Positions 5,351 to 34,114 of a stretch of 64,000 nucleotides of DNA are shown in pieces. Both the position numbers and the translations under genes were made by a program. Source of the DNA: Acidobacteriota bacterium (GTDB taxonomy: Bacteria; Acidobacteriota; Blastocatellia; UBA7656). The notes below the pieces were generated by a model. The model searched no databases, was not told where the DNA came from, and saw nothing but the letters and a program-made list of their open reading frames with translations. Within the stretch, counting starts at the first letter, position 1, and each line of letters starts with the position of its first letter. The DNA lies in contig JACQDB010000108.1 in assembly GCA_016201275.1 (NCBI GenBank), positions 1 through 64,000 of the forward strand, in the 5' to 3' direction.

Positions 5351-5375
5351 AGTTTGGTGGAACGACAAAGGGACA

Positions 5376-6527: not shown

Positions 6528-6893
6528 ATGAAAAAATTGATCTTGATGGCGCTTCTAACGACGCTGTTGCTGGCCTGTAGCAACAGCAAAACGCCTAAGC
6601 AGGAAGCGCGGGATGCGGAACCGTACAGGGTTATTTCGTCGCTGGTGAATCCGGCGAATCACAGCCTTTTGGTGATGATCCAGGTGGATCCGCCGCTTAA
6701 CGAAGCGCGGGTCAAAAAGGCGGTTGAATTGGTGATCGAAAACAACAAAGGGCAGTTTCAAAACATCGAGGTGAAATCCTTCGCTACCCCGGACGCCAAC
6801 ACTCCGCCGTTTGCGACTTCTGACTTTGACGGCCAGAGCGTGTCGCATCGCTTCAACCCGCAGGCCGCGCCGCAAAAAATCCCTTCGCACTAA
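6528..6893 (+). CDS. Small predicted lipoprotein, function unknown
   Basis: The 121-residue protein opens MKKLILMALLTTLLLAC, a textbook lipoprotein signal with the lipobox cysteine at residue 17. The rest is soluble and moderately charged, with one compact predicted domain and a His/Pro/Gln-rich tail. No family was recognised. The ATG at 6528 was preferred to the one six bases upstream because the GGAG at 6515-6518 is then about 9 bases away. It is transcribed divergently from the DUF4097 gene. Confidence 0.65.
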   Translation: MKKLILMALLTTLLLACSNSKTPKQEARDAEPYRVISSLVNPANHSLLVMIQVDPPLNEARVKKAVELVIENNKGQFQNIEVKSFATPDANTPPFATSDFDGQSVSHRFNPQAAPQKIPSH

Positions 6894-9233: not shown

Positions 9234-9300
9234 AGGTTTCCTGCGCGTTGAAATTGGTGAAAATGCTTTTTTATTGTAATGACTCAGCCAGCTTTGCCCC

Positions 9301-9483
9301 GGAGGCGCACAGGAGATTAACCTTTGGTGAAGGCACTGGAATCTCGTTGAGCAAAATCTTCGCGCTCTGAAAGGGTGCAGGAGGTTCGCCGTAGCAAACT
9401 CCCTGCGCTCTTTCGGAGTGCGAAATTTATTCTCTGTACTTTTTCCAGTGGCTTCACCAAAGGCTAATCTCCTGTGCGCCTCC
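9301..9483. repeat. Dispersed 183-bp inverted-repeat element, copy 1
   Basis: Forty-base arms at 9301-9340 and 9444-9483 are reverse complements with two mismatches. The right arm includes GGCTAATCTCCTGTGCGCCT. The centre (CGCGCTCTGAAAGGGTGCAGGA...) reappears in a related copy at 46246-46451, and an arm fragment occurs at 20399-20449. It has no coding capacity. It occupies the gap between the amidase gene and the polyketide cassette. Confidence 0.8.
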
Positions 9484-9497
9484 GGCGCGAAAATCTT

Positions 9498-10268
9498 TCA
9501 CCATTCATAAACGCGCCCGATTTCTGCTGCTGCAATCAAAGGATTGTTGAGCGCCTGAAGTTGGGTGATGACCTGTTGGCGATTGCTCGGTTTGATATGC
9601 ACCGCATAAACCTCGACTTCGCGGCGCAGTTTTTGCAAATCTCTGGCCAGCGATTGCGGCGTGAAATGTTTCGACACCGCCGCCAACTCTTCCAATTCAT
9701 TCGGGTACGACACATCTACGAAAAGCGCTTTGAGATTTTTCTGCTCCGCAGCCCGCTGCCATAATTCATCTGTGGTGTAAGTGTCCGCCGAAAAAATAAT
9801 CGTCGCGTGTTCGTCTTCGACAATCATGCCGCAAGCCGGAACGGTGTGATTGACCGGAATCGGCGTGATTCGCAAACCGGCTATGACCACCGGCGTTCGC
9901 GGCTCCAGAGTTTCATAGCGAATCGTCGCGCCTTGTCCGTTGGTCAGTTCGATCAATTCAAAATCCGGCCAGATTTGGTCATTGAAAATAAAATTCTTCA
10001 ACGCATGGATGACTTCTTCTATGCCGTAAATGGTGACCGGCGAATCCAACTCGGTAAAAGCTTCGGCGACAAATACCGGCAGACAGGCAATGTGGTCGTT
10101 GTGCGAATGCGTGATGACGACGTGGCGAATCAAAGACATTTCATCGGGCGTCAAACCAACCGAGATGCTGCCCGCGTCTATGGTCAGGCAGTCATTGATT
10201 AAGAATGTGGTCAGCGTTTGCAACTGACCGCTGGCGTGAACATTGCTTGGCAGAAGTTTGATTCGCAA
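9498..10268 (-). CDS. MBL-fold metallohydrolase, cyclic-nucleotide phosphodiesterase class II-like
   Basis: The 256-residue protein has the zinc-binding THSHNDHIA motif (HxHxDH), a later histidine in PVNHTVPACG and the aspartate in FSADTY, as expected for a binuclear metallo-beta-lactamase fold. The opening RIKLLPSNV and INDCLTIDAGS pattern resembles class II 3',5'-cyclic nucleotide phosphodiesterases. The start is a TTG with a strong GGAAGGAG ten bases upstream. Alternatives are the ATG at 10292, which overlaps the stop of the methyltransferase gene, or one at 10307. It is the last gene of the four-gene polyketide cassette. A cAMP-degrading activity could matter for the CNB-domain protein nearby, but that link is speculation. 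Confidence 0.8.
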   Translation of the reverse strand: MRIKLLPSNVHASGQLQTLTTFLINDCLTIDAGSISVGLTPDEMSLIRHVVITHSHNDHIACLPVFVAEAFTELDSPVTIYGIEEVIHALKNFIFNDQIWPDFELIELTNGQGATIRYETLEPRTPVVIAGLRITPIPVNHTVPACGMIVEDEHATIIFSADTYTTDELWQRAAEQKNLKALFVDVSYPNELEELAAVSKHFTPQSLARDLQKLRREVEVYAVHIKPSNRQQVITQLQALNNPLIAAAEIGRVYEW

Positions 10269-13106: not shown

Positions 13107-16100
13107 TCATTCGCCGCCGATTTTAATGCCGATGCTTTCTAAAAACTTGGTCGGGCGGTCGCCGCCAATCAAGGCGAAGATGTAATCATTGGCCAATCGC
13201 GCCTTCTCTACGCCTTTGCTGTCCATCAACACCACTTCGGTTTCGCTGATCTCTTTGATCTGGGTGCGGAAGAAGACTTTGATTTTACCGGCGTCCATGC
13301 AATCGTAAACATTGATCTTGTTGCCGAGTTTCAAATCGCCTTTGAAATCGCTGCGAATCACCAGCGTCACTTCATTATTGCGCGTGAAGGTGATGTTATC
13401 GCCATCGCGTTTCAAGCCCGTCAGATCAACCGCCGACTCGATTGCCGAATTGCCCGCGCCCACGACGATGCACTTTTTCTTCACGTACTCGTCGGGATCG
13501 GTGAGGCGGTATTTCACTTTGCTGTCTTCGACGGGCGACGAATTCCGCAACGCGAATTTCTCGCCGCATTGGTTGCAGAACTTCTGCACATCGCGGCGCG
13601 GGTTGCCGCACTTGTTGCAGAACTTCGCCAGAACCGGCGGCGGCTGCACCTTGATTTTCAAATCCTCGCCCTTGACGCCGAGCTTCAAAGGGGTGCCGCG
13701 ATTGCCTATGGCGATAATCACTTTGCGAGTTTTGTAGCTGACTTTTTCCTGCAAACTGCCGCGTTCGCATTTGACCGTAAAGATGCCTTTTTCCAGTTTG
13801 ATGTCCTTGCAGCTTTCCTCTTCGTGAATGATGACGTTGTTCTTCATCATGGCATCGAACCAGCCTTGCAGCATATTCTCTTTCTTGTCGCCGACGCCGG
13901 GCAGCGGAATGCCGCCTTTGGTGTCCACGGTGTCCGGTTTGAAAAATACATACTTCCCGGCGGGATAAGTCTGTTGAATCGTAGCGACAATTTTATCTTG
14001 TTCGACGGCCACATAACGCAGGCCGCGTTGTTGCGCCAGCACCGCCGCTGATAAGCCTGCAGGGCCTATGCCGATGATCGCCACATCGTATTCGGCGGCG
14101 CTGTTTGCGCCTTCGCGTTGCAAATCTTCGACGATGCTTTCGACCACCGCGCCGCCTTCATTGATGGCGTTTTTGATGAGCGGCACGCCCGACACATCGC
14201 CGATCAGATAGATGCCTTCGACATTGGTTTTGAAGCGCGTGTCGCGTTCGGGAACTTTGCGCGCCGGAATCACTTTGTTGGTGTTGATGACGATGCAGGA
14301 TTTCGGATTGGTCGGGCATTCTACCTGACAGGCAGTGTCTTCCATGCATTGATCCGGGGCGACCGGCACGGCGATGCCTTCGACGATTTTCAGCACATCG
14401 TGCGGACAAGCCTCTACGCAGGCGTGACAGCCTATGCAGGTTTTCGGGTTGACCAGCGGATACGGATGCGCCGGGCCTTTGGCCTTCAACTTGTCCAAAT
14501 CAATATTGGCGGTCTCCAACCAACTCTCTTTAAGCTTCTCCCATTTGCCCGCCGCTTTGCTGCCTTTGGCGGCTTCGGCGGCGGCTTCCTGTTGGATGTC
14601 AATGCGCGCTTTGAGCAGCGCTTTGCGACGCGACGTGCCGATGATCAAACCGACCAGCGCCAGCGTGGGAAAGGTAAAAACCGCCGCCACCCAACCGTAC
14701 CAGGGAACCGCGCCAAAATCGGAATCAAGCGCCAGCCGGGGCAAATCTTTGTCTTGGCGAATGGCGCTGGCGCTGCCCAACCCTTTGAAGGCGACCAGCA
14801 TTTCACGCCCGTTTTTATTGGTGATTTTTGCTTCATCAACCGAATTCAAAAACTTGCTCACGTCGCGCAGATTCTGCGCCCCCTGGGTCGCGGCGACTTC
14901 GGCGCGGGTCGCCAATTGCCCTTCATTCGGATGTTGTTTGTGACAGGTGATGCAGTTGGCAAGGTTGGCTTTCAAGCCCGTGGTGGGGTCGGTCGTCGCG
15001 TGACATTTCAAACAGGCTTCGCGCAAACTCTTGATGCCTTCGGCGGATTTCGCGTCCAGCCGGTTGTCTTTGTGACAAACGACGCAGGCTTTCTCGTCCG
15101 CCACTTTGCCCAGATAATGAAGGTAATGAAACTGGTCGGTTTTGACGTAGCCTACGGGTTGCACCTTTTCGAGTTTCTGTGGCGTGAAGGCTTGCTGCAA
15201 GTCTTTGGTTTCCCAACGGTCTAAAGCCCTCTGCCAGCGCGCCGCATTCCAGCCCGGCCATTTGAATTCGACGCCAAGTTGCGGCAATCCTACGCTGCCG
15301 CCGCCGTGTGGCACGGCAAGTTTTTCGCCTTTCTTCGGCCCGTCTTCAATCGCGTAGTTACCATTGTGACAATTGACGCACAAACTGTAATTGAGCAAGC
15401 CTTGTGCGCTCGCTCGTCCTTGATGCTCGGTGTGGCATTGATTGCAGGCGGTGACGTTGGCTTTTTGATGACCGGCGATGAGAGTTTGCGGGCTGAAGCC
15501 TTTGGGATTTTGCGACGTAGCGGCAATGGTGCTACCCGCCGTGTTGTGACAATCTATGCACTTGTTCTGCACGCCGCTGATGACGTTGTGACACTCTGTG
15601 CAGGAATTGGCGTTGGGGCGCAGAGCGATGCCGCGTTTGCTTACATCAGTTTTCGCATGAGCATCGGCCACAGGGTCTGGCGCAAAGGTGTTGGGGCGAA
15701 TGAACACAGCAACCAGCGCCAGCACCAAGACCACGCCAGCGCCCCAAACCCAATAGGATTTGCGCCACAATTTTCTGAGGTCGAGCGTCGGTTTCCAATT
15801 GAATTGCGCCTTGCCAATTTTGCGTGCGCCTTTCGGGTGCAACGGCGTTTTTTCCGCCAGCTTGCCTTCTTCGCGTTTGCGTTTCGCCCAAAAAACTTTC
15901 AGCGCCTGTTCATCAGCGCCGTTTAGAAAGGTGGAGAGCCGCCCAGTGCCTTGCAAGCGTTGCGTGCCGCCGGGGGTGACGATGGGCTTGGCATTGCGCG
16001 CCGGAATATTGACCATCAAGGTCTTCATATTTTCTTCGCCGCCATTGCCCGTTGACGGCATCGGGATGTTGGTCTGCGCGATGATCGGCGTGACTTCAAT

Positions 16101-16436
16101 TTCGCGTTCAACCGTCAAGTAGAGCGCCGTGTTGCCATAATTGACTTTCAACAAGAAGGGGCCAATTTGAATCAAGTCGCCTTCGGCAAGCGGCGTGCGT
16201 TCGACCAGTTCGCCGTTCAGCAAAGTGCCGTTGGATTCCGAGAGATTGTTGATCCAGAAATCCTTGCCGATTTGTTTAATGCCCGCGTGCAGGCGCGACA
16301 CTGCCGGATGATTGAGCGCCAGATCGTTTTGAATTAAGCGGCCAATGGTCAGCCCCTCGCTGTCAATGACCAGTTCATCAATGGCGACGACACCATCTTT
16401 GCGTTTGACAATAAATCGGCTCAAAGCTTCGGTCAT
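13107..16436 (-). CDS. FHA - heptaheme cytochrome c - ferredoxin - flavoprotein fusion, membrane-anchored
   Basis: The 1109-residue protein has five parts. (1) An FHA phosphothreonine-binding domain, residues about 8-100, with IGRLIQNDL, VSRLHA and NGTLLNG. (2) A transmembrane helix near 228-246. (3) A domain with seven CxxCH heme motifs (CTECH, CIDCH, CNQCH, CVNCH, CVVCH, CLKCH, CITCH), then a second helix near 590-612. (4) A two-cluster ferredoxin (CIGCHACVEAC and CMEDTACQVEC). (5) A thioredoxin-reductase-like flavoprotein with GIGPAG (FAD) and GAGNSAIES (NAD(P)) and a four-cysteine zinc ribbon (CNKCG, CNQCG) between them. Predicted topology puts FHA, ferredoxin and flavin in the cytoplasm and the hemes in the periplasm. 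It is the last gene of the redox cluster. No ribosome-binding site is obvious. Confidence 0.9.
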   Translation of the reverse strand: MTEALSRFIVKRKDGVVAIDELVIDSEGLTIGRLIQNDLALNHPAVSRLHAGIKQIGKDFWINNLSESNGTLLNGELVERTPLAEGDLIQIGPFLLKVNYGNTALYLTVEREIEVTPIIAQTNIPMPSTGNGGEENMKTLMVNIPARNAKPIVTPGGTQRLQGTGRLSTFLNGADEQALKVFWAKRKREEGKLAEKTPLHPKGARKIGKAQFNWKPTLDLRKLWRKSYWVWGAGVVLVLALVAVFIRPNTFAPDPVADAHAKTDVSKRGIALRPNANSCTECHNVISGVQNKCIDCHNTAGSTIAATSQNPKGFSPQTLIAGHQKANVTACNQCHTEHQGRASAQGLLNYSLCVNCHNGNYAIEDGPKKGEKLAVPHGGGSVGLPQLGVEFKWPGWNAARWQRALDRWETKDLQQAFTPQKLEKVQPVGYVKTDQFHYLHYLGKVADEKACVVCHKDNRLDAKSAEGIKSLREACLKCHATTDPTTGLKANLANCITCHKQHPNEGQLATRAEVAATQGAQNLRDVSKFLNSVDEAKITNKNGREMLVAFKGLGSASAIRQDKDLPRLALDSDFGAVPWYGWVAAVFTFPTLALVGLIIGTSRRKALLKARIDIQQEAAAEAAKGSKAAGKWEKLKESWLETANIDLDKLKAKGPAHPYPLVNPKTCIGCHACVEACPHDVLKIVEGIAVPVAPDQCMEDTACQVECPTNPKSCIVINTNKVIPARKVPERDTRFKTNVEGIYLIGDVSGVPLIKNAINEGGAVVESIVEDLQREGANSAAEYDVAIIGIGPAGLSAAVLAQQRGLRYVAVEQDKIVATIQQTYPAGKYVFFKPDTVDTKGGIPLPGVGDKKENMLQGWFDAMMKNNVIIHEEESCKDIKLEKGIFTVKCERGSLQEKVSYKTRKVIIAIGNRGTPLKLGVKGEDLKIKVQPPPVLAKFCNKCGNPRRDVQKFCNQCGEKFALRNSSPVEDSKVKYRLTDPDEYVKKKCIVVGAGNSAIESAVDLTGLKRDGDNITFTRNNEVTLVIRSDFKGDLKLGNKINVYDCMDAGKIKVFFRTQIKEISETEVVLMDSKGVEKARLANDYIFALIGGDRPTKFLESIGIKIGGE

Positions 16437-16533: not shown

Positions 16534-19152
16534 TCAACGCGCCAGATAATAGACCACCTGAATGATGTGAACGGTCATCAAGGCCAGCATCAAAGAGGTG
16601 GATAAAACGTGCGGCGGCAACCACATCTTTAACAACAGGTGCATATAAATCAAGGCGTCCACGCGGCGCAAGGTTGCTGCCGCTTCGACGGCGCGCTCCA
16701 GATTGCGGCGCTCTTCTTTGGCTGCTTCGATGGCGGCCAGAAATTGCAGCCGCCTTTCGACTTTGGCAAACTCCGGCAGCCCGATCAAAAAAGTTTCGTT
16801 CGCCGGATTCGCTATGATGTTTTTCGCCAGCGGGAGTTGCGCTTCAAATCCGGCGCTCCGCAAATCATGGGTCAGCCGCGCTTCCAGCAGATAATCTCCG
16901 GCGCTTTTGTATTCGGCTTTAGCTTCGGCAATCATGTCGTCAATCTTTTCGCGTTGCAGATATTGCCGAATCAAATACGCCGAGGTGACAAAGCGCGGAA
17001 TCACGCGCTTCAACACCATCTCGCGCAAAGGCTCGGAGGGCTGGCTGACAATGGTCGCCATCTCTTTCTGCAACTCGCGCCGCCGCGCCCGCAAATCGTC
17101 AATCAATAAAGGCGAGCCTTCGATTTTGGTCAACACTCGCGGCGCTACAAAATAAATCGCTATGCCGAACAGCCCCGTCACTATCACCACATCAAAAGAC
17201 CACATCAAAGCCGTCGTCAACCAACCGCCCGAATCCGCGCCGCCATGCAATAACAACATCAACCCGGCGATCACTCCCGCATAAGTATGCACCAGCAGCC
17301 AGTAACGCAGCGGCCCTTTGCGTTTGGTATAAGTTTGTCGCCGGAACGGATAGGTCATCACCAGCGCTATGCCCAAAAGTCCAACCACCCCGGTGATCCA
17401 ACGCATATTGAGAATGCCAAAGATGCTTGCGCCCATGCCGTAGCGTTGAAATCCCAACAGCGTCGCCGCCAATAACACTACAGTGGTCAAGATTCCGGCG
17501 ATGTGCAGCATCTTTTTCGGTGGGTCGGATTTGTGTATATTGCGCCCCAACGCATGAGTTTCGTCAATCTTGAGCAAGCCTTCAATCTGGCCGATCTCTG
17601 CGAAGTATTGAATCGGCGTGATGCGCGCCAAGGCTCCCGTCGGGCAATTCTCTTCGCAACTATATTTCGCCTCCTGGCTGTCCGGCGGATTGATCGAAGT
17701 GCCGTTGCAGAGATTGCATTTGACGGCGAGCAAATCGTCGGTTGCTTCCACAGCGGCAGGCAAAGGGTCGGGTTGCAGGCGCAGCAAATCTTTGATCTTC
17801 CAGGCGAAATTTTTGGTAACGTCGCTGGCTTCGACTTTGCGCGAAATCATGGAGATGGCGTTATATGGGCATTGCGTAGCGCAATCGCCGCAACCTATGC
17901 AGGTCTTGGGTTCAATATCCACCTGCCCTTGTCCGAAGCGGCCAATCGCCCCGGTCGGACAGCCCGTCATGCATTCGGGGTCGGCGCAGTGCATACAGAC
18001 TTCCGGCGACAACACGCTTTGCACAGCGCCCAAGCGTGCCGCTTCGAGTCGGGTGACGTGAACGCCGCGCCGCGTCAACCGGGATTGCCCATGAATCTTG
18101 TGACAGGCGAGCGAACAATTGCCGCAGCGCACACATAAATCCATGTCCATCACCAACAGATTGTTGCCGTCCACCAATCCCGTAGCGATTAAATCTTCCT
18201 GCGATTCTCTGACCAGTTTGCGGGTGTCGGCTTTTTTGATGACCTTGCCGAAATTGATGCGCGAACCAAGGGCGGGCGGCGTGAAAGCGGTAGCGGCGCG
18301 TATGAATTCATCGCGCAGTTCCAACGCCTGACGCAATTTGTTGATCGAAATTTCCAAGACCTCTGCACGCGACATGAGGGTGACGGTATAAGGCCAGCGT
18401 TCATTTTTCATCAAGCCTTCGAGGCCAAAGATGAAGCCGCGTCCGAGATAATCCACGATTTGCGTTTCGAGTTCAACGGTCGCCCCTTGGCGACGTTTGA
18501 GCCAACCTTGTTTGACCACGTAGATGCGATTGACCGGATCGCCTTCACGAAACAGCGTGTGATTTTTGGCAAACACGCGAAAGGTTGAAATGCTGCTCAA
18601 CTCTTTAACGAAGTCGGCATCGAGATTGGTCAACAGGCGTATGTCTTCGAGTATGGCGTTGCGCCCGTGCTTGCGATAATTTTTATCCAGTTCTTCGCTG
18701 AACTCCGGGATTTTGCGAAGCAGACGCAGCGCCGGTCTTTGAATTTCCAGCAGCTTGGCTTTTTGATTAGCAGGCGCTTTGATGGTGGCGTTGCGCGGCA
18801 ATCCGGCCAGCACAGACATTTCACCGAACAGAGTGCCGGGTTGAAATTCCGCAACCTTGACCTGTTGACGGTTGGGCGCGTTGACATAAACTTCGGCGAT
18901 GCCATCAACCAGCATGAAAAACGTATTGCCGCCCCAATCGCCTTCAACGATGACGGCTTCGTTCGGGTCATAGGTTAATAAACGCACGTAAGGGCCGACA
19001 TTTTTGCCGCGATAGTTGCGCCCGTAAACGGTTACTTCAAGATCGAGTTCATAATCGAAATGGCCTTCGTGAGTTGAGAGCAGACTCTTCAAAGGCGGCA
19101 GCGATTGAATGGCATCCAACACTTCACGGCGACTTTTATGTTCCTTCGGCAT
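16534..19152 (-). CDS. Cyclic-nucleotide-binding x2 - four-cluster ferredoxin - cytochrome-b-like membrane fusion
   Basis: The 872-residue protein starts with two cyclic-nucleotide-binding-like domains (about residues 60-165 and 180-290; GTLFGEMSVLAGLPRNATI is the phosphate-cassette region of the first, GFIFGLEGL in the second is weaker). A ferredoxin region (about 335-515) has four cysteine sets: CVRCGNCSLAC, CMHCADPECMTGC, CIGCGDCATQC, and CNLC with later CEENC. This resembles electron-transfer beta subunits of molybdopterin oxidoreductases. About four helices then span 545-700, with histidines spaced for b-heme ligation (VHTYAGVIAGLMLLLH). A long helical cytoplasmic stretch and a final His-rich helix follow. 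The ATG after AAAGG is preferred to the TTG three codons upstream. A role in passing electrons through the membrane under cNMP control is inferred. Confidence 0.88.
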   Translation of the reverse strand: MPKEHKSRREVLDAIQSLPPLKSLLSTHEGHFDYELDLEVTVYGRNYRGKNVGPYVRLLTYDPNEAVIVEGDWGGNTFFMLVDGIAEVYVNAPNRQQVKVAEFQPGTLFGEMSVLAGLPRNATIKAPANQKAKLLEIQRPALRLLRKIPEFSEELDKNYRKHGRNAILEDIRLLTNLDADFVKELSSISTFRVFAKNHTLFREGDPVNRIYVVKQGWLKRRQGATVELETQIVDYLGRGFIFGLEGLMKNERWPYTVTLMSRAEVLEISINKLRQALELRDEFIRAATAFTPPALGSRINFGKVIKKADTRKLVRESQEDLIATGLVDGNNLLVMDMDLCVRCGNCSLACHKIHGQSRLTRRGVHVTRLEAARLGAVQSVLSPEVCMHCADPECMTGCPTGAIGRFGQGQVDIEPKTCIGCGDCATQCPYNAISMISRKVEASDVTKNFAWKIKDLLRLQPDPLPAAVEATDDLLAVKCNLCNGTSINPPDSQEAKYSCEENCPTGALARITPIQYFAEIGQIEGLLKIDETHALGRNIHKSDPPKKMLHIAGILTTVVLLAATLLGFQRYGMGASIFGILNMRWITGVVGLLGIALVMTYPFRRQTYTKRKGPLRYWLLVHTYAGVIAGLMLLLHGGADSGGWLTTALMWSFDVVIVTGLFGIAIYFVAPRVLTKIEGSPLLIDDLRARRRELQKEMATIVSQPSEPLREMVLKRVIPRFVTSAYLIRQYLQREKIDDMIAEAKAEYKSAGDYLLEARLTHDLRSAGFEAQLPLAKNIIANPANETFLIGLPEFAKVERRLQFLAAIEAAKEERRNLERAVEAAATLRRVDALIYMHLLLKMWLPPHVLSTSLMLALMTVHIIQVVYYLAR

Positions 19153-19285
19153 ACAAGACAACCTTTGCGGAAACGGAAAATTGCAATCAATTTGTCATCG
19201 GTAAAAATTAGGTCGGTTAAGCAACATACCATTGCGGTTTTCTTGTGGTCAATCGAATGCGTATGAAGCCGTCTTTATCCGCCGA

Positions 19286-20257
19286 TTAAAACGGCAGCGC
19301 ATTGGTGTGGCATTTCGAGCAGACCGATTCTTTCTTCTGTACGTGGCAAGACCAGCAGGCGGAACTGTGTTTTTGACCACGCGAAGTATTGATTTGCTGG
19401 ATGTCAACGCGCGGCTCTGCGGGTGGCTCCATCATCTTGTGGCAGCGGTCGCAGCTTGCCGCTTTCAGGTGCGAGGCGCTGTGGCGGAATTTGAAATTCA
19501 AGGCGCTGCCCATCCCCGGATTGTACTTCACCGCTTGCGTAGCGTTGATGTGACAGATGCCGCAATCGCCGAGTTTCTGTCCCGCTTGATGGGTGTGGCA
19601 TTGATAACATTGCTGGTGTTTGCCAAAGGTCGCTCGTGTGGGATTGCTTTTCACGTCGTGACAGAGGGCGCAACTGACTTGCGCTTCGTTGCCCATCTTG
19701 GCTTGATCCATGTGGGTCTTGTGCGAAAAACCTTTCAAACCGCCCTTAATGCCGAACTCTTCCTCTCGCGTCGGATAGGGCAGGAGGTTCGCTTTGAAGG
19801 TCTGGTCGGCGGTTACGGCAACCGGCGGGTCGAGGTGACAGCCGCCGCAGAACGGATTATTTTTCGTGGTTCCGGTTTCCGTCAGATTATATTTTTCTCT
19901 GTCGGTTTTATGGCAACGATTGCAGGCATCGTGATACGGCTGCCAGTATGGATGACCGGGTTGCAAAGACACCGGCGCGGCGGGATTTTTGGTATCGCGT
20001 TTGTGACATTCGCCGCAATCGGTGAGTTGTTTGTGGCCGTCGCGGAAATGGTCGTAGGTGGACTTATTTCCGGGCGCGACGAAATTCGCTTCTTTGACAA
20101 AGCCAGTGGGCGCGTTCGGTTCCGGCGTGGTGGTCGGCGGTTGTTCGGGCGCTTGGTTGAGATTTTTTTGCGAGGTTTTACAGGCAGCAATCAGCACAAG
20201 AAAAACCACTACCGCAACCACCAGTTTTATGCTTTTCGATTTGTCTCTTGTCATCAT
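19286..20257 (-). CDS. Nonaheme c-type cytochrome lipoprotein
   Basis: The product, 323 residues, begins with a lipoprotein signal (VVAVVVFLVLIAAC, cysteine about residue 25) and a Pro/Thr-rich linker. It has nine CxxCH motifs: CGECH, CNRCH, CGGCH, CALCH, CYQCH, CGICH, CDRCH, CWSCH and CSKCH. Extra histidines (GHK, GHPYW, SHKTHM, RHSASHL) can supply distal ligands, as in class III multiheme cytochromes. It would be a membrane-tethered periplasmic electron carrier. The start is the first of two adjacent ATGs just before the signal. An in-frame extension of 63 residues upstream is not credible as protein. It precedes the CNB-ferredoxin gene in the same direction. Confidence 0.9.
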   Translation of the reverse strand: MMTRDKSKSIKLVVAVVVFLVLIAACKTSQKNLNQAPEQPPTTTPEPNAPTGFVKEANFVAPGNKSTYDHFRDGHKQLTDCGECHKRDTKNPAAPVSLQPGHPYWQPYHDACNRCHKTDREKYNLTETGTTKNNPFCGGCHLDPPVAVTADQTFKANLLPYPTREEEFGIKGGLKGFSHKTHMDQAKMGNEAQVSCALCHDVKSNPTRATFGKHQQCYQCHTHQAGQKLGDCGICHINATQAVKYNPGMGSALNFKFRHSASHLKAASCDRCHKMMEPPAEPRVDIQQINTSRGQKHSSACWSCHVQKKESVCSKCHTNALPF

Positions 20258-20330
20258 CACTGTTGCCTGTTGGTTCAAGTTTGGCGTACCGAAAATATTC
20301 GCAATCGTAATCGTCCGCCCGATGTTCTGT

Positions 20331-20449
20331 GAAAAAATAATCCCGCAATCCGCATCCTGCGCCCCGCCTAGGCGCAAGACAGAAGCCTCGAACGAAATTC
20401 CAGTGACTTTACCGCTGGCTAATCTCCCTGCGCGCCTCCGGCGCAAAGG
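20331..20449. repeat. Two repeat fragments side by side
   Basis: TGAAAAAATAATC at 20331-20343, then CGCATCCTGCGC, matches one end of the element at 34486-34602. Immediately after, 20399-20449 (CCAGTGACTT...GGCTAATCTCCCTGCGCGCC) matches the right arm of the 9301-9483 element. Together with the MITE at 20477-20578 they fill the 359-base gap between two cytochrome genes. This suggests repeated insertion in the same spot. No gene or clear promoter was seen in the gap. Confidence 0.6.
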
Positions 20450-20616: not shown

Positions 20617-21573
20617 TTAATTTCTTCGGCTGCTGTTGCGAATCTCCTGCAAGGTATTCGCCGCCAGCGGGTCGGGCAATCCCAGTTTGCCGTTGTGACA
20701 GAGATTGCAGGTCATCTCTTCGGGCAATTTGATGTCGCTTAATTTTTTGGCCGCGTCCACCGTCTTGTGACACTCGGCGCACAGATAATCGCCGGGCTTG
20801 ACGCGGTATTCGACTTTCTTCACAGAGCGCGTGTCGTTATAGGTTTCATGGTCTTCGTGATGAAAGGTCTTGACGATGCCGTACAGATGCGGCGCTTTCG
20901 CGCCCTGCAAATCGTGACACTGGGCGCAGTCATTCATATAAGGAAAATCTTGGCGCGGCGCAGCAGGTTTTTCGCCGTGACATTGAAAACAGGTCGAATG
21001 GCCTTTTTCAATGACCATCTCCATGTCGTCCGTCCGCCGTGTGGCGATGCGTTGATGACAATCGTCGCAGCGCGGTGATGCGCCCACCGCGACTTTGAAT
21101 TTTGATTCCGGCGAACGCACAAACATCACATCGGCAGGCACCGGCTTGCGATGCGACGGGTGCGAAAAGTCTATGCCGAAATCGCTGGTCAATTGCCGGG
21201 TCTTGGTGACGAAATCGAGCATATAGGTCTGGGCTTTTGACACCGGCAATTTGGAATGGCAGATGGCGCAATTCTTTGTCGGTTTGAACAACGCTTCAAC
21301 GGCAAGGTTATGACAAGAGATGCAGGCGGCGTGACCGGGAAACTTGGTGACGTTGGGTTGGTCAACCGTGACTTTGTGACAGGTCGAACACTTCACCGTG
21401 CGATGTTTTTTCGAGGCGTGATCGAAACTCGCATTAGCCGGGTCGCCCTTAAAATCTTTTGCCATCAAAACCACTTCATCATCGGCGCGAGTCGGCAATG
21501 CGCCCAGGCAAGCGCCCAGCGCCATCACGCAAGCCAAAGCCAAAATTAGTTTTTTGATTTTTGCTGTCGCCAA
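20617..21573 (-). CDS. Octaheme c-type cytochrome
   Basis: The 318-residue periplasmic protein has a signal peptide (KKLILALACVMALGAC, then ALPTRADD). Eight CxxCH motifs are visible: CSTCH, CISCH, CAICH, CDDCH, CFQCH, CAQCH, CAECH and CNLCH. Paired histidines (DHASKKH, SHPSHR, HHEDHE) suit bis-histidine heme ligation. The start is a TTG five bases after a GGAGG. The ATG seven codons upstream (21594) is the alternative and would lengthen the signal's charged end. The lipobox-like LGAC could make it a lipoprotein. It sits between the tetraheme and nonaheme genes in the same direction. Confidence 0.88.
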   Translation of the reverse strand: MATAKIKKLILALACVMALGACLGALPTRADDEVVLMAKDFKGDPANASFDHASKKHRTVKCSTCHKVTVDQPNVTKFPGHAACISCHNLAVEALFKPTKNCAICHSKLPVSKAQTYMLDFVTKTRQLTSDFGIDFSHPSHRKPVPADVMFVRSPESKFKVAVGASPRCDDCHQRIATRRTDDMEMVIEKGHSTCFQCHGEKPAAPRQDFPYMNDCAQCHDLQGAKAPHLYGIVKTFHHEDHETYNDTRSVKKVEYRVKPGDYLCAECHKTVDAAKKLSDIKLPEEMTCNLCHNGKLGLPDPLAANTLQEIRNSSRRN

Positions 21574-21629
21574 CTCATCCTCCGAAACTTTCATAGGTGC
21601 GAAATCGCCAATAAAACCTGGCTTTTTTG

Positions 21630-22103
21630 TTACTCTGCCTTGTGACAACCGCCGCAGGTCGTCGGCCCTTTCTTGGATACGTTCATCGTGTAGTTTGCCC
21701 GATGACAGCCTATGCACATATCGTGATAAGCGCGTTCGGCATAGACTTCATCGAAATCCCGATTCTTCGGATTTTTCTCGTTCGCCTCGCCCTTGTGACA
21801 GGCGATGCACTTCCACAACTGCGGAATGCCGCGCTGGCTTTCGGTGTGGTGACAACCGGCGCAGGCGGCGTTCGGCTTGGCTTTCACTCGATAAACAAAT
21901 TGCGGATCGGGATTGATTAACGCCTCGTGTCCCTTGTGGCTGAAATAGACGATGCCGCGATAGCCTTTGGTGTCGAGCGTGATTACCTTGTCCTGCGGCG
22001 GCGTGGTTTGACTCACTGGCAAAGCGAACGCCACGACCCGCAAGGCCGCAGGCGTCAGTAACGCACCGAGGAACATCAGTAAAATTGCCAGCTTTAATCT
22101 CAT
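21630..22103 (-). CDS. Tetraheme cytochrome c3-type protein
   Basis: The 157-residue protein starts MRLKLAILLMFLGALLTP, a signal peptide or anchor. It has four heme motifs, CAGCHH, CIACH, CIGCH and CGGCH. The core, from GIVYFSHKGHEALINP to the third heme, closely parallels the N-terminal domain of the cytochrome/beta-barrel fusion at 26890-29229 (GLVVFDHKKHEALLNP...CIGCHH). The two are paralogues, and this could be the soluble or membrane-tethered partner of the barrel protein. The ATG was chosen because it immediately precedes the signal; a weak GAGAA lies upstream. Confidence 0.9.
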   Translation of the reverse strand: MRLKLAILLMFLGALLTPAALRVVAFALPVSQTTPPQDKVITLDTKGYRGIVYFSHKGHEALINPDPQFVYRVKAKPNAACAGCHHTESQRGIPQLWKCIACHKGEANEKNPKNRDFDEVYAERAYHDMCIGCHRANYTMNVSKKGPTTCGGCHKAE

Positions 22104-22104
22104 G

Positions 22105-22389
22105 TCAAATTCTCTGTCGGATAAATGGCTCAATCAACTCATCAGGTATGCGATTGCGCTCAATATGCGCGTTGATTTCCTCCTGATGATCACTGTAATA
22201 GCTCAACGCTTCAAAAACCTGCGCCAGACTGAGATGCGGCATACGACTGGGAATCTCTTCGGCTGCAACGCCTCGTCTCCAAGTCTCAACGATTGCCCGC
22301 ACCGGCGTGCGCGTCCCTTCAATAATCGGTTCACCGCTGAGGATCGTATCATCGGTTACGATATAACGATATTGTGTACCTACAGCCAT
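22105..22389 (-). CDS. DUF433 family small protein (antitoxin-like)
   Basis: The 94-residue protein contains the DUF433 pattern: GEPIIEGTRTPVRAIVE, then a short helix-turn-helix-like region with LSLAQVFEALSYYSDH. DUF433 proteins are often antitoxins paired with PIN-type toxins, but no PIN gene is adjacent. It ends one base before the tetraheme cytochrome start, so it is probably co-transcribed with the cytochromes. Why it sits there is unclear. It could regulate the cluster or be a stray module. Confidence 0.8.
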   Translation of the reverse strand: MAVGTQYRYIVTDDTILSGEPIIEGTRTPVRAIVETWRRGVAAEEIPSRMPHLSLAQVFEALSYYSDHQEEINAHIERNRIPDELIEPFIRQRI

Positions 22390-26654: not shown

Positions 26655-26870
26655 TTACAACTCGCCTTCCTCCAGTTGATAAAAACAGTTGTGACAAATC
26701 GTTTGAGGTGCCAGGTCGCAATCCTCAAGCGTGCATTCGTGATCTTCGCCGCACACTCGACAATAATGCGAGTGGAAGCCTTCATTTATCGGGTCGTTCG
26801 GTCGCCGATACACATAGGCTTCGCGGTCTTCCCGCCGCCGCCGTTTGGCTTCTTCCGCATCGGAGGCCAT
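26655..26870 (-). CDS. Small cysteine-rich (zinc-ribbon-like) protein
   Basis: The 71-residue protein has an Arg/Glu-rich start and a C-terminal half with HYCRVCGEDHECTLEDCD and CHNCFYQ, seven cysteines that could bind one or two zinc ions. No signal peptide is present, so it should be cytoplasmic. The ATG at 26870 has GGAG nine bases upstream. It lies between the two largest cytochrome genes in the same direction, which suggests a regulatory or assembly role in the cluster, but no family was recognised. Confidence 0.7.
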   Translation of the reverse strand: MASDAEEAKRRRREDREAYVYRRPNDPINEGFHSHYCRVCGEDHECTLEDCDLAPQTICHNCFYQLEEGEL

Positions 26871-26889: not shown

Positions 26890-29229
26890 TCAATAAACAA
26901 ACTTCAACTTCACAAAAGCCGAATAGAGCGTCTTGGGATTTGCGCCGCACCCTTGCCCCGCACAATTGGAACTGAAAATGTCTTTGAAGCCACGCCCCGG
27001 CACCAGCGACGTAAAGCCGCCAGCGACAATAATATTCTCGCTCAACATCGGGCGGAAAATAACGCCGAGGCCATAATCGAAACCTATGGACTTGTGAACC
27101 TGCGGTTGAAATAACAATTCGGACAAGGTTTCGGTGTGATGAAAATGCGAATAGTTGGCATTCACTATACCGCGCAGTTTGGGCGTCAATTCGGCTTCAA
27201 GACCGGCGTTGTACACCAATATGCCTGGGTTGACGAAGTTCGATTGGCCTTCAAATTTGCTGCTTCGCAAGGAAGGCAACAAACTTTCAGGCGTGGTCAA
27301 CAACACGCCGGTGTTGGTGAAAGGAATCGCCTGCGAATTCCAGAAACTGAATTTGCCGCCGGCGAATTCCGTGGTATCCACAATTGAATCGAAACCTCTG
27401 GCCGTGCCATCGAACGGTTTGCTGTCGCCGGAAGCAAAAAATATAGAGCCTTTGAAACGCAACCAGTCGCGGTCACGGGACAATTCCAGCGCCGCCATCT
27501 GGGCGTTGATGCGGGTGCGCCGACCGGCTATCGGATTGCGCGTGTCGTGTCCCAACACCTGATAGAAAGCGTGATTGATGTTGAGCAAGCCGATGTGACC
27601 GTCGCCGGTGAAGCCTAAATAAATCGCCTTGATGCCGTGCATCGCTACATCGCCAATCAAGGCCGGGCGCACCAGAAAATCGTTCTCATCGAAACGCCGG
27701 CTCGGACGATCATTGTTGTAATGGAAACTGAATTGCGCGGTGTAGCCTTTCCAGATCGTGTCCTGCCGATAGAGGTTGCCGATGAACACCGTTTGATTGC
27801 GGAATTCGCCGCGATTGATGCGCGTGTTCAATTCGCTGTTGGTGTCTTTTTCGAGCATATAAAAATATGCCGAGTTGAAGTTGTAGCGATTGTTCGACGC
27901 CTGGCCGAAGAGCCGCGCTCCCAAATTGAAATCGTTGAAGATGAAGCCGCGAAAATCGCTGTTGAATTGTTGTATGCCTGCACGTATGAAAGTGGTGTCA
28001 AAATAGGCGCTCTCGCCCTTTTTGTTATCAATGAAACCTTTTTTATCGGTCTTGCTGCCTTTGCGGAAAAACGGCAAGAGGTTAGTGGTATCGCCCAAAC
28101 GCTTTTCAAAAAACATCTCTTGAAAACCGATGTAGCTGTCGAAGCGATTGGTGCCGATAAGCGGATTGATGTTGACGAGATTGCGCTCCTGCGTGTTCAG
28201 GTAATTGATATTGAAGTTCGGCGTAAAGCGCACGCGCCAATCCACAGGCTTGAATGACGCATCGCCGTTGAACAGTTCCACCGACAGCGAAAAATTTTGC
28301 CGCGTGAAGAGTTGTCCGCCGCGCCCGAAAAATTCGGCGCTGTTCGAGCGCTCTGAACTGACGCCGCTTGGCACAGGGATGCGCCGCCCGTTGATTAAGG
28401 TTTCGCTCTCCAGATTCAACACCAGAAAATTGTGCTGGCGGAAAATCGGATAATCGCCTTTCAAGACATTCTGCCGATAGGGATTGAAGAACGAGCCTTT
28501 TTTGTAGCGCGGGTCTTCGGGAAAACCTATGCGCCAGCGGTCGGTGACAGGCAATTTATCGCCCTCGTTCGAGGTGGCTTTCTCAATGCGCGATTTGCCA
28601 GCATAACCGATAGGCGGGTCAAAGGCTGTGTTGATGACTTCGCCGGGCGCGGGATAATTTTTGACGAGGGAGCGCGGCGGATAAATCTCTTCATTGGGAT
28701 TAAGGAAAGGCGCTTGCTCATCATTGACTTGAGCCATTTCCGAACCCATATTGCCACGGTCGTGGCACTCGCTGCATTTGGTGAACTTGCTGTTTTGGAT
28801 GCGATAATTCGAGGCACGAAAATCGGTAGCGCGATGACAACTGATGCACAAGCGGTGATAAATTTCCCGGCGGTTTAAATCTATACTGTCGGCATCGTCG
28901 GGATTTTTGTCATTGGCGATGTCTTTGTGACAGTCGGTGCAGTTTTGAAACTGTTTGAGATCGGTGACTTCTTTGACCGTATGATGACAGCCGATGCAGG
29001 CGAGATTGGGACGCGCTTTATGTTTGAAAGTGGCATCGGGATTGAGCAGGGCCTCATGTTTTTTGTGGTCAAAGACCACCAGGCCGCGCTGACCTTGTGC
29101 ATCGAGTTGAATCGGCACCGGCTTGCTCTGCTGCGTCGCATCCAGCGCGGCATTGGAACGCGCCGACGACTGCACGACGACAACAAAGGCCACAAGGTAC
29201 AGCGCAACGATGATAAACTTCAGCTTCAT
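26890..29229 (-). CDS. Tetraheme cytochrome fused to a probable outer-membrane beta-barrel
   Basis: The 779-residue protein has a signal peptide (KFIIVALYLVAFVVVVQSSA). Residues about 48-160 form a c3-like domain with four heme motifs (CIGCHH, CTDCH, CISCH, CSECH). A Pro-rich linker leads to residues about 250-779, which are rich in alternating aromatic/polar strands and short turns and end in LYSAFVKLKFVY. A terminal aromatic residue after a beta-strand is the usual outer-membrane barrel signal. The layout suggests a heme domain attached to a porin, which could carry electrons to or across the outer membrane. It is the first gene of the nine-gene redox cluster and has a strong GAGGAG ribosome-binding site. 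The barrel assignment is from pattern only. Confidence 0.85.
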   Translation of the reverse strand: MKLKFIIVALYLVAFVVVVQSSARSNAALDATQQSKPVPIQLDAQGQRGLVVFDHKKHEALLNPDATFKHKARPNLACIGCHHTVKEVTDLKQFQNCTDCHKDIANDKNPDDADSIDLNRREIYHRLCISCHRATDFRASNYRIQNSKFTKCSECHDRGNMGSEMAQVNDEQAPFLNPNEEIYPPRSLVKNYPAPGEVINTAFDPPIGYAGKSRIEKATSNEGDKLPVTDRWRIGFPEDPRYKKGSFFNPYRQNVLKGDYPIFRQHNFLVLNLESETLINGRRIPVPSGVSSERSNSAEFFGRGGQLFTRQNFSLSVELFNGDASFKPVDWRVRFTPNFNINYLNTQERNLVNINPLIGTNRFDSYIGFQEMFFEKRLGDTTNLLPFFRKGSKTDKKGFIDNKKGESAYFDTTFIRAGIQQFNSDFRGFIFNDFNLGARLFGQASNNRYNFNSAYFYMLEKDTNSELNTRINRGEFRNQTVFIGNLYRQDTIWKGYTAQFSFHYNNDRPSRRFDENDFLVRPALIGDVAMHGIKAIYLGFTGDGHIGLLNINHAFYQVLGHDTRNPIAGRRTRINAQMAALELSRDRDWLRFKGSIFFASGDSKPFDGTARGFDSIVDTTEFAGGKFSFWNSQAIPFTNTGVLLTTPESLLPSLRSSKFEGQSNFVNPGILVYNAGLEAELTPKLRGIVNANYSHFHHTETLSELLFQPQVHKSIGFDYGLGVIFRPMLSENIIVAGGFTSLVPGRGFKDIFSSNCAGQGCGANPKTLYSAFVKLKFVY

Positions 29230-29659: not shown

Positions 29660-30523
29660 TCAGTTATCTGCCGGACGGGTGAACATGATTTCGTTGGATT
29701 CGCGGCCATCAGGATTTTTCACCTTGATGGCGACGGTTTGTCCGGGCGCGATATTGCGTCCGGCCTTCTTCGCGATCAATGATGTACGGGGACTTGCCGC
29801 ATCATTTTGGGTTTTCTGTTTTTCTTCATTCATAAAAATCATCGCGCCATTGGCGAAATCCTCGCCTCTGACCAACAGCTTTTTCCCCTTGACGGTTGCC
29901 TCTGTTATTTTTGGATCAACTGCTGGAACCGACGGGCGAATCGTCGCCGTTGCGCTAAAGACAAAATCGCCGGTGCTGGTGCGGTTATTATCGGCCTGTA
30001 CGCCCGCCGCATAGAAGATAACTTCGTCGCTTGTGGTCGCCTGCCATTGAAATTTCCAGGTGGCTTGGGAGTCTCCGCGAAATGTTCCCGCCGCGCTGTT
30101 TTGAATATATTGGCGATCATTATTCGGCCCTTTATCGGGCAGCAACTCCGTCGTGCCATCGAGCGCGTCTATGAAGCGGCCTGCCGGTTGATTGCCGGAG
30201 GTCAGTGCTGTCACCTGAAACCCCCAACGATTTCGATTGGGATCGCTGGAGATGGATTTTACGGTGATGTCGTAGAGGTTGTTGTCGGTACTGGGTGGCG
30301 TTGCGGTGATCGTGAAATCTTCTTTATCAGTCTGTAGGAGGCTCGAATGACAACCGGATGTGGCGCAGGTTACTTCGTTGGGCGCACCAGTGAAGCCGTT
30401 ATTTAACCCAGAGGTAAAGGCTTGGGCGGTTTCGATAGCCTTATTGTTGAGCAACCCTCCTGCGGCGATCAACAATATGAAGATCATCAGGCAAACGCAT
30501 TTGGCGAGTTTTCTTTTCTTCAT
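29660..30523 (-). CDS. Secreted reeler-like protein with IPT domain and a CX4CH motif
   Basis: The 287-residue protein has a signal segment (KCVCLMIFILLIAAGGLL). A reelin-like (choice-of-anchor) domain of about residues 40-190 opens with GFTGAPNEVTCATSGCHSS. Relatives often have CASCH at this spot; here the spacing is CX4CH, like one site of the giant cytochrome at 22407-26612. An IPT/TIG-like domain follows (PKITEATVKGKKLLVRGEDF to the end). It is probably exported; heme attachment is possible but unproven. The ATG at 30523 follows a GAGA, with an in-frame TTG three codons upstream as the alternative. It lies between the redox cluster and the TonB receptor on the same strand. Confidence 0.75.
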   Translation of the reverse strand: MKKRKLAKCVCLMIFILLIAAGGLLNNKAIETAQAFTSGLNNGFTGAPNEVTCATSGCHSSLLQTDKEDFTITATPPSTDNNLYDITVKSISSDPNRNRWGFQVTALTSGNQPAGRFIDALDGTTELLPDKGPNNDRQYIQNSAAGTFRGDSQATWKFQWQATTSDEVIFYAAGVQADNNRTSTGDFVFSATATIRPSVPAVDPKITEATVKGKKLLVRGEDFANGAMIFMNEEKQKTQNDAASPRTSLIAKKAGRNIAPGQTVAIKVKNPDGRESNEIMFTRPADN

Positions 30524-30679
30524 CTTGGGCAATCTCTCTGATCCTTTGGAGACGAAATGGCTGTTGGCATTTTGGGCTTAGGACGGATGCGAATCCTTGC
30601 TTGGGAACTCTTCGTATCGCAAGGATTCGCAATCGCCCTAAGCCTGCCTATCGCTGCTTACCTCGAGCAATCGTCTAGC

Positions 30680-33600
30680 CTAGAAAATGAACTTCGCGGC
30701 AACGACGACTTGGCGGTTGTCTATGAAAGAGGGCAACGGGCCGGTGCTGGAACGACCAATACGTTGACCGCGACTAACGGTGACAGCGGGAACAAAAGCA
30801 CTTCCTCCGTTAAAGGAATTAGACGCAATATCATTGGTTCCGACATTCACATAGAGATTGGCGTGATTGAAAGCGTTATAGAATTCGCCGCGCAGTTGCA
30901 GTTTTACGCCTTCGCGTCCGAAGATTTTCGGCAACGAAAAATTCCGCATCACTGCCAGATTGTGATACTGGGTTCCCGGACGCCGGAAGATGTTGCGCGA
31001 AATGGCTCCGGTAAAGGGACCATTGACCGAACTCAAGGAAGTAAAATTCAGAGCGGGATTCAATAACAGATAGAGAAATGTGTTGGACTGGCTGGCATCC
31101 GGTATGCGTTCAGCTTTGACCAGGGTGCCTTTCAGAATGGGTCGCGGACTTGAGGTGCGATCATATCCTGTGGTTCCCCTGTCAAAAATGCTGAACGGCT
31201 GTCCTGATTGGAAGGAGAGAATGCCACTGATTTCCCATCCATCAAGAAGATGTTTCACCCAACGGTTACTCAGATTGTCAGCAAACGGAATCTGCCAGAT
31301 AAAATTGGTGACAAATCGGTGGCGGGTATCGAAATCCGAAGCGCCCCGGTCGAGATCGGGATTAAAGGCATCCAGAAATCCAAAGCCTACTGGATTGGCA
31401 GTCCCATCTTCATAGAAAAAAGAACTGACATTATCTATCGAATGGCTCCAAGTGTAATTCGCGCCCAATTGCAATCCCAACTTTTTCAGTCGGTCGGTCT
31501 CCGCTCTAACTTGCAAAGCGTTATAGCTGGAATAACCGAGATTGCCACGAGTGTTAATCTCCGCAAGAAAGACATCCTTGTCATCTTTATCTTTCGCCAT
31601 AACCAGATCGCCCGGCCTGCCCAGCAATACTCCGCTGTCTATCTTGTTAATGTTATTCAAAGAATAAAGGCGCTCTCCTCTGGTTCCCACATACGTCAAA
31701 CCCATTAATAAAGACGGTGTCACTTTATGTTCAAGACTGGCATTGACCGAGACCGAGTAAGCGGTTTTGAGATTCTGGTCGAGGTGTCTGCCACTGGTGA
31801 AGGACAAGGTGAATTGGGCACCGGGAGGCAATAAGGCATAGGGATTTTTCACCAGATCAGAATTGAGTATGAACCCTCCAAAATTGGTTTGAGCAAAGGA
31901 GGGAGGATTCACACTTACATTGGCCAACACATTGCCGAAATTGCGGTCATAAAAAACACCTACGCCAGAGCGCAATACGGTTTTGCCGGTGCCGAACATA
32001 TCCCAGGCAATGCCGAATCGAGGGGCGAAATTTTTATAGTCGGGCAGATAGAAATGCCCTTTGTATTTGCTTGGCGCGTCACTGACACGGAGGAACTTTC
32101 CATTGGCGATTCTTTCCAGATTACTGCGGCCTTCGCCGTAGTAGAAGTTTGCATCCAAATCCTTTTCACTTCTGGCGCTGTGCAGAACGCCGAAGTATTC
32201 ATAGCGCAAACCGGGAGTAATGGTCAGGCGGGGATGAGCTTTCCAAGTATCCTGAATGAATACGGAAAACTCATTATAGTTGTAGTGGCGTTTAATCGTC
32301 CCCGGCGAAAACGGCGCGATGACATTGCCGCCCGGTGCCTGCCCTTGCGGGTCAAAGGTCAGTTGGTAATTGCCAAGCACACCATTGACAAAACTTTGGG
32401 TACCGAAAAACTGTGCCACTGGTAATTCATTTAACACTGGAGGAGTGATGGCCTCGCGGGCGTGATAATATTGCCCTCCAAATTTGAGCAGGTGTTCTCC
32501 TTTGGTGTAGGTTGCCGTTTGATAAAGCTGATAGGTATTTTGTAAATCCAGAAATTCGCTGGAACCAAACGGAATGCTAACGTCGTCGGCAACGCCAAAT
32601 AGCCCGAAAATCGCTAAATAGCCCTTGGCGGGATTACTGACTCTTGCGGTGGCTTCATCTTGGCGTTTGGCGCGTCCGTAGATGGCTCGTGATTCGCTCA
32701 CCAGATTATTGGACCAGATTCTGGTCAGGTTCAGGTGAATGTTGTGTGAGCGCACCTCTTCGCCTTGATATAAGTCTTCGCTATAGGGTTGGTTGACCTG
32801 CCCGAAGATATCGGAATAATCTAGCGAGTATCTGCCAAAGAGTTGCATCTTCTCACTGATATTGTAATCCAAGCGTCCCGAAGCTAGAACCGAATTTTGA
32901 GGGTTGCCAGCGCCAAAATTTCTCGGACCATTTACGGTAACCGGAACATACGCAGGTATGGTAATGCGCCCTTGTTGGCTATTCGGGGGACAAGTCACCC
33001 CGAATGGACAAATCGTTCGTAACAATGCTCCAGGCTGATTGCCGTCAGGCCGAAAGGCTGCCGAATTTTTGCGTTGTATAATCGCCTCGGTCTGCGTAAA
33101 TATATCTCGCGTTCCTGCGACACTTCGATCAAGGAGTTGTTTGGTCGGCACAAAAAAGTTCACCGATCCATTACTACGAACCACGATTGGCTCAACTGCG
33201 GTAAAGAAGAAGAGCTTTTCTTTTACTACAGTTCCGCCCAAAGAGCCGCCGAATTGATGGCGATTAAAATTTGGGCGTGCAATCCCTCTCGCATTATTGT
33301 CAAAGCTGTTAGCCGCAAGCGCCGAATTACGAATGAAATCGAAAAGATTGAAATGGTAAGTGTTGCTGCCGACATTCGAGACGATATTGGCAATGAACCC
33401 TAAATTACGCCCATATTCGGCAGTAAAGTTATTGGTCAGAATGCGAAATTCCTTGATTGATTCCATCGAGAGATTCTGCGCCGGGCCGGCAAAAAAGATG
33501 TTGTTATTTTCGCTGCCATCCACCACATAATTGCCGCTTGAAGAGCGTTGCCCATTTACCGCAAGACCGATACCGCGACTTTCGCTGGTGGGGGAAGCAC

Positions 33601-34114
33601 CGGGACTCAAGGCGACAAATTCAAAAACATTGCGCGTCAAAGACGGCAGTTCGGCGATCTGCTCCTTTGAGATAACATACGCAATCGCATTGCCGGCGTC
33701 GGTGTTAATTATCGCATTCGGCGCGGTTGATGTGTCAGGGGAATTGACCATGACCAATTCATTCATGCCGCCGGTCTTGAGGGTGATGTCGGCGAGTTCA
33801 TTTTGGCTCGCCACGCTGACTTCGATGTTGTTGAGTTGCGATTTGGAAAAGCCGGTGTATTCAGCGGTCAAGGTGTAGGTGCCGGGCGGGATGCTGATAA
33901 AAGTATAGTTGCCGTTTTCGTCGGCGGTGATTTCCCGTTTCAAGGCGGTGCCTTTGTTGGTCAAGGTCAGTTTGGCGTTGGCAATCACTGCGCCTTTTTC
34001 GTCCAGTACGCGACCGGAGACCGTGCCGTTGGGGCTTTGGGGCAAGGCTATAGAGTTTAAGGTGAGCAGCAAAATGCCGACCACAAAAAAGCGTTTCCAA
34101 TTCAGGTGTGTCAT
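30680..34114 (-). CDS. TonB-dependent receptor with N-terminal carboxypeptidase-regulatory-like domain (Oar-like)
   Basis: The 1144-residue outer-membrane protein has a signal peptide (VVGILLLTLNSIALPQ). A CarboxypepD_reg-like beta-sandwich lies at about residues 28-105 (GTVSGRVLDEKGAVIANAKL, then NGNYTFISIPPGTYTL). A plug domain (RNVFEFVALSPG, GLAVNGQRSSSGNYVVDG) and a long barrel follow, ending VVVAAKFIF. The layout matches the Oar-like receptors that are especially numerous in Acidobacteriota. The ligand is unknown; no classical TonB box was pinned down. The start follows a strong GGAGGAG. It may be expressed with the reeler-like gene downstream. Confidence 0.93.
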   Translation of the reverse strand: MTHLNWKRFFVVGILLLTLNSIALPQSPNGTVSGRVLDEKGAVIANAKLTLTNKGTALKREITADENGNYTFISIPPGTYTLTAEYTGFSKSQLNNIEVSVASQNELADITLKTGGMNELVMVNSPDTSTAPNAIINTDAGNAIAYVISKEQIAELPSLTRNVFEFVALSPGASPTSESRGIGLAVNGQRSSSGNYVVDGSENNNIFFAGPAQNLSMESIKEFRILTNNFTAEYGRNLGFIANIVSNVGSNTYHFNLFDFIRNSALAANSFDNNARGIARPNFNRHQFGGSLGGTVVKEKLFFFTAVEPIVVRSNGSVNFFVPTKQLLDRSVAGTRDIFTQTEAIIQRKNSAAFRPDGNQPGALLRTICPFGVTCPPNSQQGRITIPAYVPVTVNGPRNFGAGNPQNSVLASGRLDYNISEKMQLFGRYSLDYSDIFGQVNQPYSEDLYQGEEVRSHNIHLNLTRIWSNNLVSESRAIYGRAKRQDEATARVSNPAKGYLAIFGLFGVADDVSIPFGSSEFLDLQNTYQLYQTATYTKGEHLLKFGGQYYHAREAITPPVLNELPVAQFFGTQSFVNGVLGNYQLTFDPQGQAPGGNVIAPFSPGTIKRHYNYNEFSVFIQDTWKAHPRLTITPGLRYEYFGVLHSARSEKDLDANFYYGEGRSNLERIANGKFLRVSDAPSKYKGHFYLPDYKNFAPRFGIAWDMFGTGKTVLRSGVGVFYDRNFGNVLANVSVNPPSFAQTNFGGFILNSDLVKNPYALLPPGAQFTLSFTSGRHLDQNLKTAYSVSVNASLEHKVTPSLLMGLTYVGTRGERLYSLNNINKIDSGVLLGRPGDLVMAKDKDDKDVFLAEINTRGNLGYSSYNALQVRAETDRLKKLGLQLGANYTWSHSIDNVSSFFYEDGTANPVGFGFLDAFNPDLDRGASDFDTRHRFVTNFIWQIPFADNLSNRWVKHLLDGWEISGILSFQSGQPFSIFDRGTTGYDRTSSPRPILKGTLVKAERIPDASQSNTFLYLLLNPALNFTSLSSVNGPFTGAISRNIFRRPGTQYHNLAVMRNFSLPKIFGREGVKLQLRGEFYNAFNHANLYVNVGTNDIASNSFNGGSAFVPAVTVSRGQRIGRSSTGPLPSFIDNRQVVVAAKFIF

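Follow-up and report, generated by a model that had tools for sequence, protein, structure and literature searches.

Can one polypeptide serve both as an outer-membrane pore and as the multiheme cytochrome that passes electrons there? The question is raised by an open reading frame at 26890-29229 on the minus strand of a 64,000-nucleotide stretch of DNA from a Blastocatellia genome (the window), which begins with ATG and is uninterrupted up to its stop codon and whose product starts with a hydrophobic signal segment, i.e., a signal peptide. The original prediction, made from this sequence, held that a tetraheme c3-like domain precedes a barrel-like region in one chain and that a single protein could perform both functions. 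The domain order is borne out by a Pfam match to the cytochrome, by a barrel in the AlphaFold2 model and by the intact recurrence of the two parts in a single frame in other genomes, whereas the division of labor turns out to be different from the one proposed (Table 1).

Table 1. Features of the fusion protein and of the gene cluster around it (positions in the window)
Feature	Position	Strand	Evidence
c3-barrel fusion protein, 779 aa	26890..29229	-	open frame; intact in 9 genomes including the window's
Tetraheme cytochrome c3 domain, residues ~54-157	28759..29070	-	PF02085 above cut-off; heme ligands conserved
Linker, residues ~158-260	28450..28758	-	alignment; low pLDDT
18-strand AlgE-like outer-membrane barrel (predicted), residues ~261-779	26893..28449	-	AlphaFold2, Foldseek, VIA
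Decaheme cytochrome with C-terminal LVIVD beta-propeller, 1405 aa	22407..26624	-	9 CxxCH and 1 CxxxxCH; PF08309; adjacency
Free tetraheme c3, paralogue of the fused domain; likely start ATG near 22103	21630..22133	-	42% identity
Octaheme c7-type cytochrome; frame start given, true start probably further in	20617..21717	-	
Nonaheme c7-type cytochrome, possible lipoprotein	19286..20446	-	
cNMP-binding multi-4Fe-4S protein with five C-terminal TM segments	16534..19161	-	
FHA - TM - heptaheme - TM - 4Fe-4S - FAD/NAD(P) oxidoreductase protein	13107..16436	-	

The cytochrome part belongs to class III, as indicated by a match of residues 60-156 to PF02085 (Cytochrom_CIII; 36.0 bits, E 9e-9, compared with a Pfam cut-off of 22.9 bits) together with four CxxCH motifs at residues 78, 97, 128 and 152. 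Shuffling the protein 20,000 times gave a mean of 0.003 such motifs and never gave four. When seven fused homologues are aligned with four free ones, none of the four motifs varies, nor do the distal histidine ligands of classical c3, namely those of FxHxxH, the second histidine of CxxCHH and the histidine before the third motif. This conservation of FxHxxH, CxxCHH and HxxCxxCH argues for bis-histidine ligation of all four hemes. The fused domain thus shares with class III cytochromes c3 the four CxxCH motifs and the distal histidines in their classical order, but those proteins are soluble while the domain in question is tethered to a barrel and has a soluble paralogue in the same cluster. 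AlphaFold2 modelled the c3 part poorly (pLDDT ~30-50, in a model without hemes). Purifying selection acts on the c3 domain with a strength not far from that on the barrel, the dN/dS ratios being 0.12-0.19 and 0.09-0.10, respectively, with synonymous sites near saturation.

Sequence searches of Pfam and PDB with the C-terminal ~520 residues yielded no significant match and the fold of this region consequently had to come from modelling. AlphaFold2, given the full-length protein and an input alignment of 69 rows, folds residues 267-778 into 18 long strands, with pLDDT mostly above 90. Foldseek returned AlgE as the best solved structure for the barrel (E 4e-17), followed by OprD/Occ-type channels, and VIA-align superimposed residues 269-779 on AlgE with a Z of 28.8 and an rmsd of 2.8 Å over 360 residues. 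AlgE (PDB 5d5d, 3rbh) has the same 18-strand barrel fold but differs in sequence (~13-14% identity), in having no cytochrome and in its gene context. The window protein has no match to the Pfam alginate export family PF13372, which gave one weak match (E 0.0087) among 17 relatives. The original prediction had proposed AlphaFold-type modelling, with a beta-helix or a soluble domain as the outcome that would speak against it, and had noted an aromatic C-terminal residue; the model is a barrel, and the last residue is Tyr in the fusion protein and Phe or Tyr in all relatives aligned. As far as prediction goes, the C-terminal region is therefore an outer-membrane barrel. We also considered a TonB receptor and rejected it, since the frame at 26890-29229 contains neither a plug nor a TonB-barrel match; its neighbor at 30680-34114 is such a receptor, and the window's genome carries more than two dozen TonB-receptor-like genes of the OMP_b-brl_4 type. 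Just upstream of the fusion gene, 29660-30532 (minus strand) encodes a secreted protein of 290 residues, which contains one CxxxxCH motif (CATSGCH) and matches no Pfam family at the cut-off.

Relatives of the barrel were found in at least 573 loci on GTDB contigs, of which the best 80 were inspected, so that more fusions may exist elsewhere. Among these best 80 of at least 573, the family is mostly found in Acidobacteriota (Blastocatellia, Terriglobia, Bryobacterales, Pyrinomonadaceae), and the remainder includes some KSB1, Nitrospira and others as well as sphingomonad plasmids. One locus titled Bordetella parapertussis (L070) carries a barrel gene that groups with Bryobacterales in the tree, and the entry is probably a mislabelled metagenome bin. 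A barrel match is present in 20 of 199 genomes sampled across the phylum and in 78 of 162 in the class. Only seven of an initial set of barrel genes carry hemes; the heme-free barrels have a CarboxypepD_reg domain, an Ig-like domain or almost nothing in the N-terminal position. The last 30 residues of the linker (DRWRIGFPE...NVLKGDYPI) are aligned and conserved in heme-free relatives as well.

The absence of the c3 domain from most relatives is what might be expected if two genes had been joined through an error of sequencing or assembly. We can dismiss this explanation with near certainty, including its variant of a frameshift, because the fused frame is intact in eight further Blastocatellia genomes besides the window's and purifying selection acts on the c3 domain; the conserved ligands and the number of CxxCH motifs relative to shuffled sequences lead to the same verdict. 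Within the class, the intact four-heme fusion is present in all seven genomes of the window's family and in two of a second family (G326 and G329), and in a third genome of that second family (G325) the fusion is cut by a contig end. The heme-bearing barrel genes form one clade in the tree (SH-aLRT 99), where the lone heme-free row (L028) is likewise a sequence cut by a contig end. From the single clade, the spread over two families and the dN/dS of the c3 domain we conclude that the fusion is old, of single origin as far as sampled, and maintained.

Across phyla, the barrel gene has a constant companion in the decaheme propeller gene, which lies directly downstream on the same strand in 94 of the 99 loci. 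Of the five exceptions, four stop where their contig ends; the other (L012) covers little sequence, and in a longer version of it (L047) the decaheme gene is found 1,150 bases further on. Heme-free barrels have the same partner. Conservation is higher in the decaheme protein, with a mean column identity of 54%, than in the barrel, with 38%, and the ten heme motifs of the former are invariant among the proteins aligned. The propeller is modelled confidently and the heme part poorly, and the fold matches are to the propeller only. Residues 1383-1401 constitute a hydrophobic segment followed by basic residues, resembling a C-terminal sorting tail, which some relatives have and others do not. A short frame of 71 codons between the barrel and decaheme genes (26655-26870, minus strand) encodes paired cysteines in a zinc-ribbon-like arrangement and has no Pfam match.

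The genes of the window from the barrel to the FHA protein are all on the same strand. The decaheme gene is separated from the free tetraheme gene by a DUF433 gene (22105-22389, minus strand). The FHA protein has 1109 residues, with two TM segments flanking seven CxxCH motifs and followed by ferredoxin and YpdA-like FAD/NAD(P) domains, and as judged from this domain order it could possibly provide a one-chain electron path through the inner membrane. In the three longer fused loci, the genes for the free tetraheme, octaheme and nonaheme cytochromes follow the window's order, and two of these loci also have the cNMP gene. In other Acidobacteriota and in KSB1, the pair has as neighbors another multiheme cytochrome and a homologue of the cNMP-FeS protein; several phyla have such homologues beside the pair. 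An unfused pair is also encoded by Chloracidobacterium. Plasmids of Sphingobium and Sphingopyxis carry an unfused barrel (38-40% identity) together with the decaheme protein (41-45%), and near the pair of S. herbicidovorans there are genes for an FHA-multiheme protein, a b561-like protein (below the Pfam cut-off) and a FAD-cNMP-FeS protein, the last being split from the b561-like protein in Sphingobium. That the same modules are joined differently across lineages speaks for a functional link among them. In the S. herbicidovorans locus (L107; noted at 8058-10034 and 333-6611), the pair also lies beside genes for an HbpS-like lipoprotein and a c554-like cytochrome, and further up there is a protein of 2092 residues adjoining an FhaC-type secretion gene.

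How might these proteins work together? In the standard topology of outer-membrane barrels, an even number of strands leaves both ends of the barrel in the periplasm. Since the model has 18 strands, the c3 domain would be held in the periplasm by what is expected to be an outer-membrane protein. By the usual barrel geometry, 18 strands correspond to a backbone diameter of ~32-34 Å, compared with ~47 Å for 26 strands, and so a full heme wire should not fit into the pore. Nor should the whole c3 domain or the whole decaheme protein; either heme-bearing parts would extend into the pore from its two ends, or a small substrate would enter it. The narrow barrel and the separate decaheme protein, which accompanies it in essentially every locus and even where the barrel is heme-free, make it improbable that the fusion protein does both jobs alone, and here we depart from the original prediction.

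We assign a probability of roughly 0.55 to an arrangement in which the barrel, with its flexibly linked periplasmic c3 domain, works together with the decaheme propeller cytochrome encoded by the adjacent gene. The barrel and the decaheme protein would form a complex and electrons would be transferred at or across the outer membrane. In our best reading, the two constitute an undescribed outer-membrane electron-transfer module, to which the c3 fusion adds a periplasmic relay in one Blastocatellia lineage, derived from a duplicated c3. Electrons could exit the inner membrane via the FHA-heptaheme-FeS-FAD and cNMP-FeS-TM proteins, and the octaheme, nonaheme and tetraheme cytochromes would then carry them on to the c3 domain of the fusion protein. 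This domain might take electrons from its multiheme neighbors, or give electrons to them, and would pass electrons on at the barrel to the decaheme protein; the latter may in turn exchange them with a substrate that is outside or enters the pore. A more far-reaching version, which we hold at somewhat less than even odds, is that the 18-strand barrel and the decaheme protein represent a new class of outer-membrane electron-transfer complex, distributed across the Acidobacteriota and on sphingomonad plasmids and fed from the inner membrane by FHA/cNMP/FAD-FeS proteins, with the c3 fusion as a lineage-specific, hard-wired periplasmic input.

This arrangement has two serious rivals, each of which we regard as unlikely. 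The fusion protein could act as a Cyc2-like oxidase or reductase, where a small soluble substrate such as Fe2+, quinone or a humic fragment meets the c3 domain at the periplasmic mouth of the pore and no wire spans the membrane. The 18 strands are indeed close to the 16 of Cyc2 and the cytochrome is N-terminal in both, but no sequence relation to Cyc2 was seen, and the heme-free relatives retain the barrel and the decaheme partner, from which it follows that the fused heme is dispensable for the core function. The other possibility, to which we give about the same low weight, is that the decaheme propeller protein acts as an enzyme in the periplasm, that the barrel is the channel for its substrate or product, much as AlgE is an export channel for alginate, and that the c3 domain only supplies this enzyme with electrons close to the outer membrane. 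The higher conservation of the decaheme protein and the C-terminal TM tail of some members would also fit such an enzyme, and part of the protein weakly matches an eight-heme nitrite reductase. Against it, none of the ten heme sites varies, we identified no catalytic site in the decaheme protein, and the wider cluster consists almost wholly of electron carriers.

Among described systems, Cyc2 is a monoheme cytochrome-porin fusion with a predicted 16-strand barrel (PMC8406198, PMC5566968), in which a small substrate is proposed to enter the pore (PMC8406198); the statement in the original prediction that known conduits use separate subunits overlooked this case. The protein described here resembles Cyc2 in having an N-terminal c-type cytochrome and a C-terminal outer-membrane barrel in one chain, with the cytochrome expected at the periplasmic mouth. 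Cyc2, however, has one heme, 16 strands and no obligatory decaheme neighbor, whereas four c3-type hemes, 18 strands and a decaheme partner gene are found here, and we do not assign the protein to the Cyc2 family. The MtrAB, MtoAB and PioAB conduits consist of a 26-strand barrel and a separate decaheme wire (PMC8406198, PMC10654088). They are similar in that a barrel gene is paired with a decaheme cytochrome gene, but their wire is compact, while the decaheme protein in question has widely spaced hemes and a propeller. With 18 strands and not 26, the barrel is not MtrB-like; the absence of MtrB and Cyc2 from the best fold matches proves nothing alone. No description of LVIVD multiheme cytochromes, of the barrel module or of the Chloracidobacterium and Sphingobium cases was found in the literature searched, which excludes subscription journals and preprints. 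Within that literature, the protein appears to be a new form of cytochrome-porin fusion, which uses an AlgE-like barrel and is set in an undescribed module of barrel and decaheme propeller.

The fused cytochrome-porins in the literature searched have a single heme, and a counterpart with four hemes and another type of barrel would mean that pores were hard-wired to an electron carrier on more than one occasion. The location of the fusion beside a conserved decaheme cytochrome suggests an uncharacterized passage of electrons at or through the outer membrane. More importantly, the conserved pair of barrel and decaheme propeller points to an uncharacterized redox system of the cell envelope in abundant soil bacteria and in cultured Sphingobium strains.
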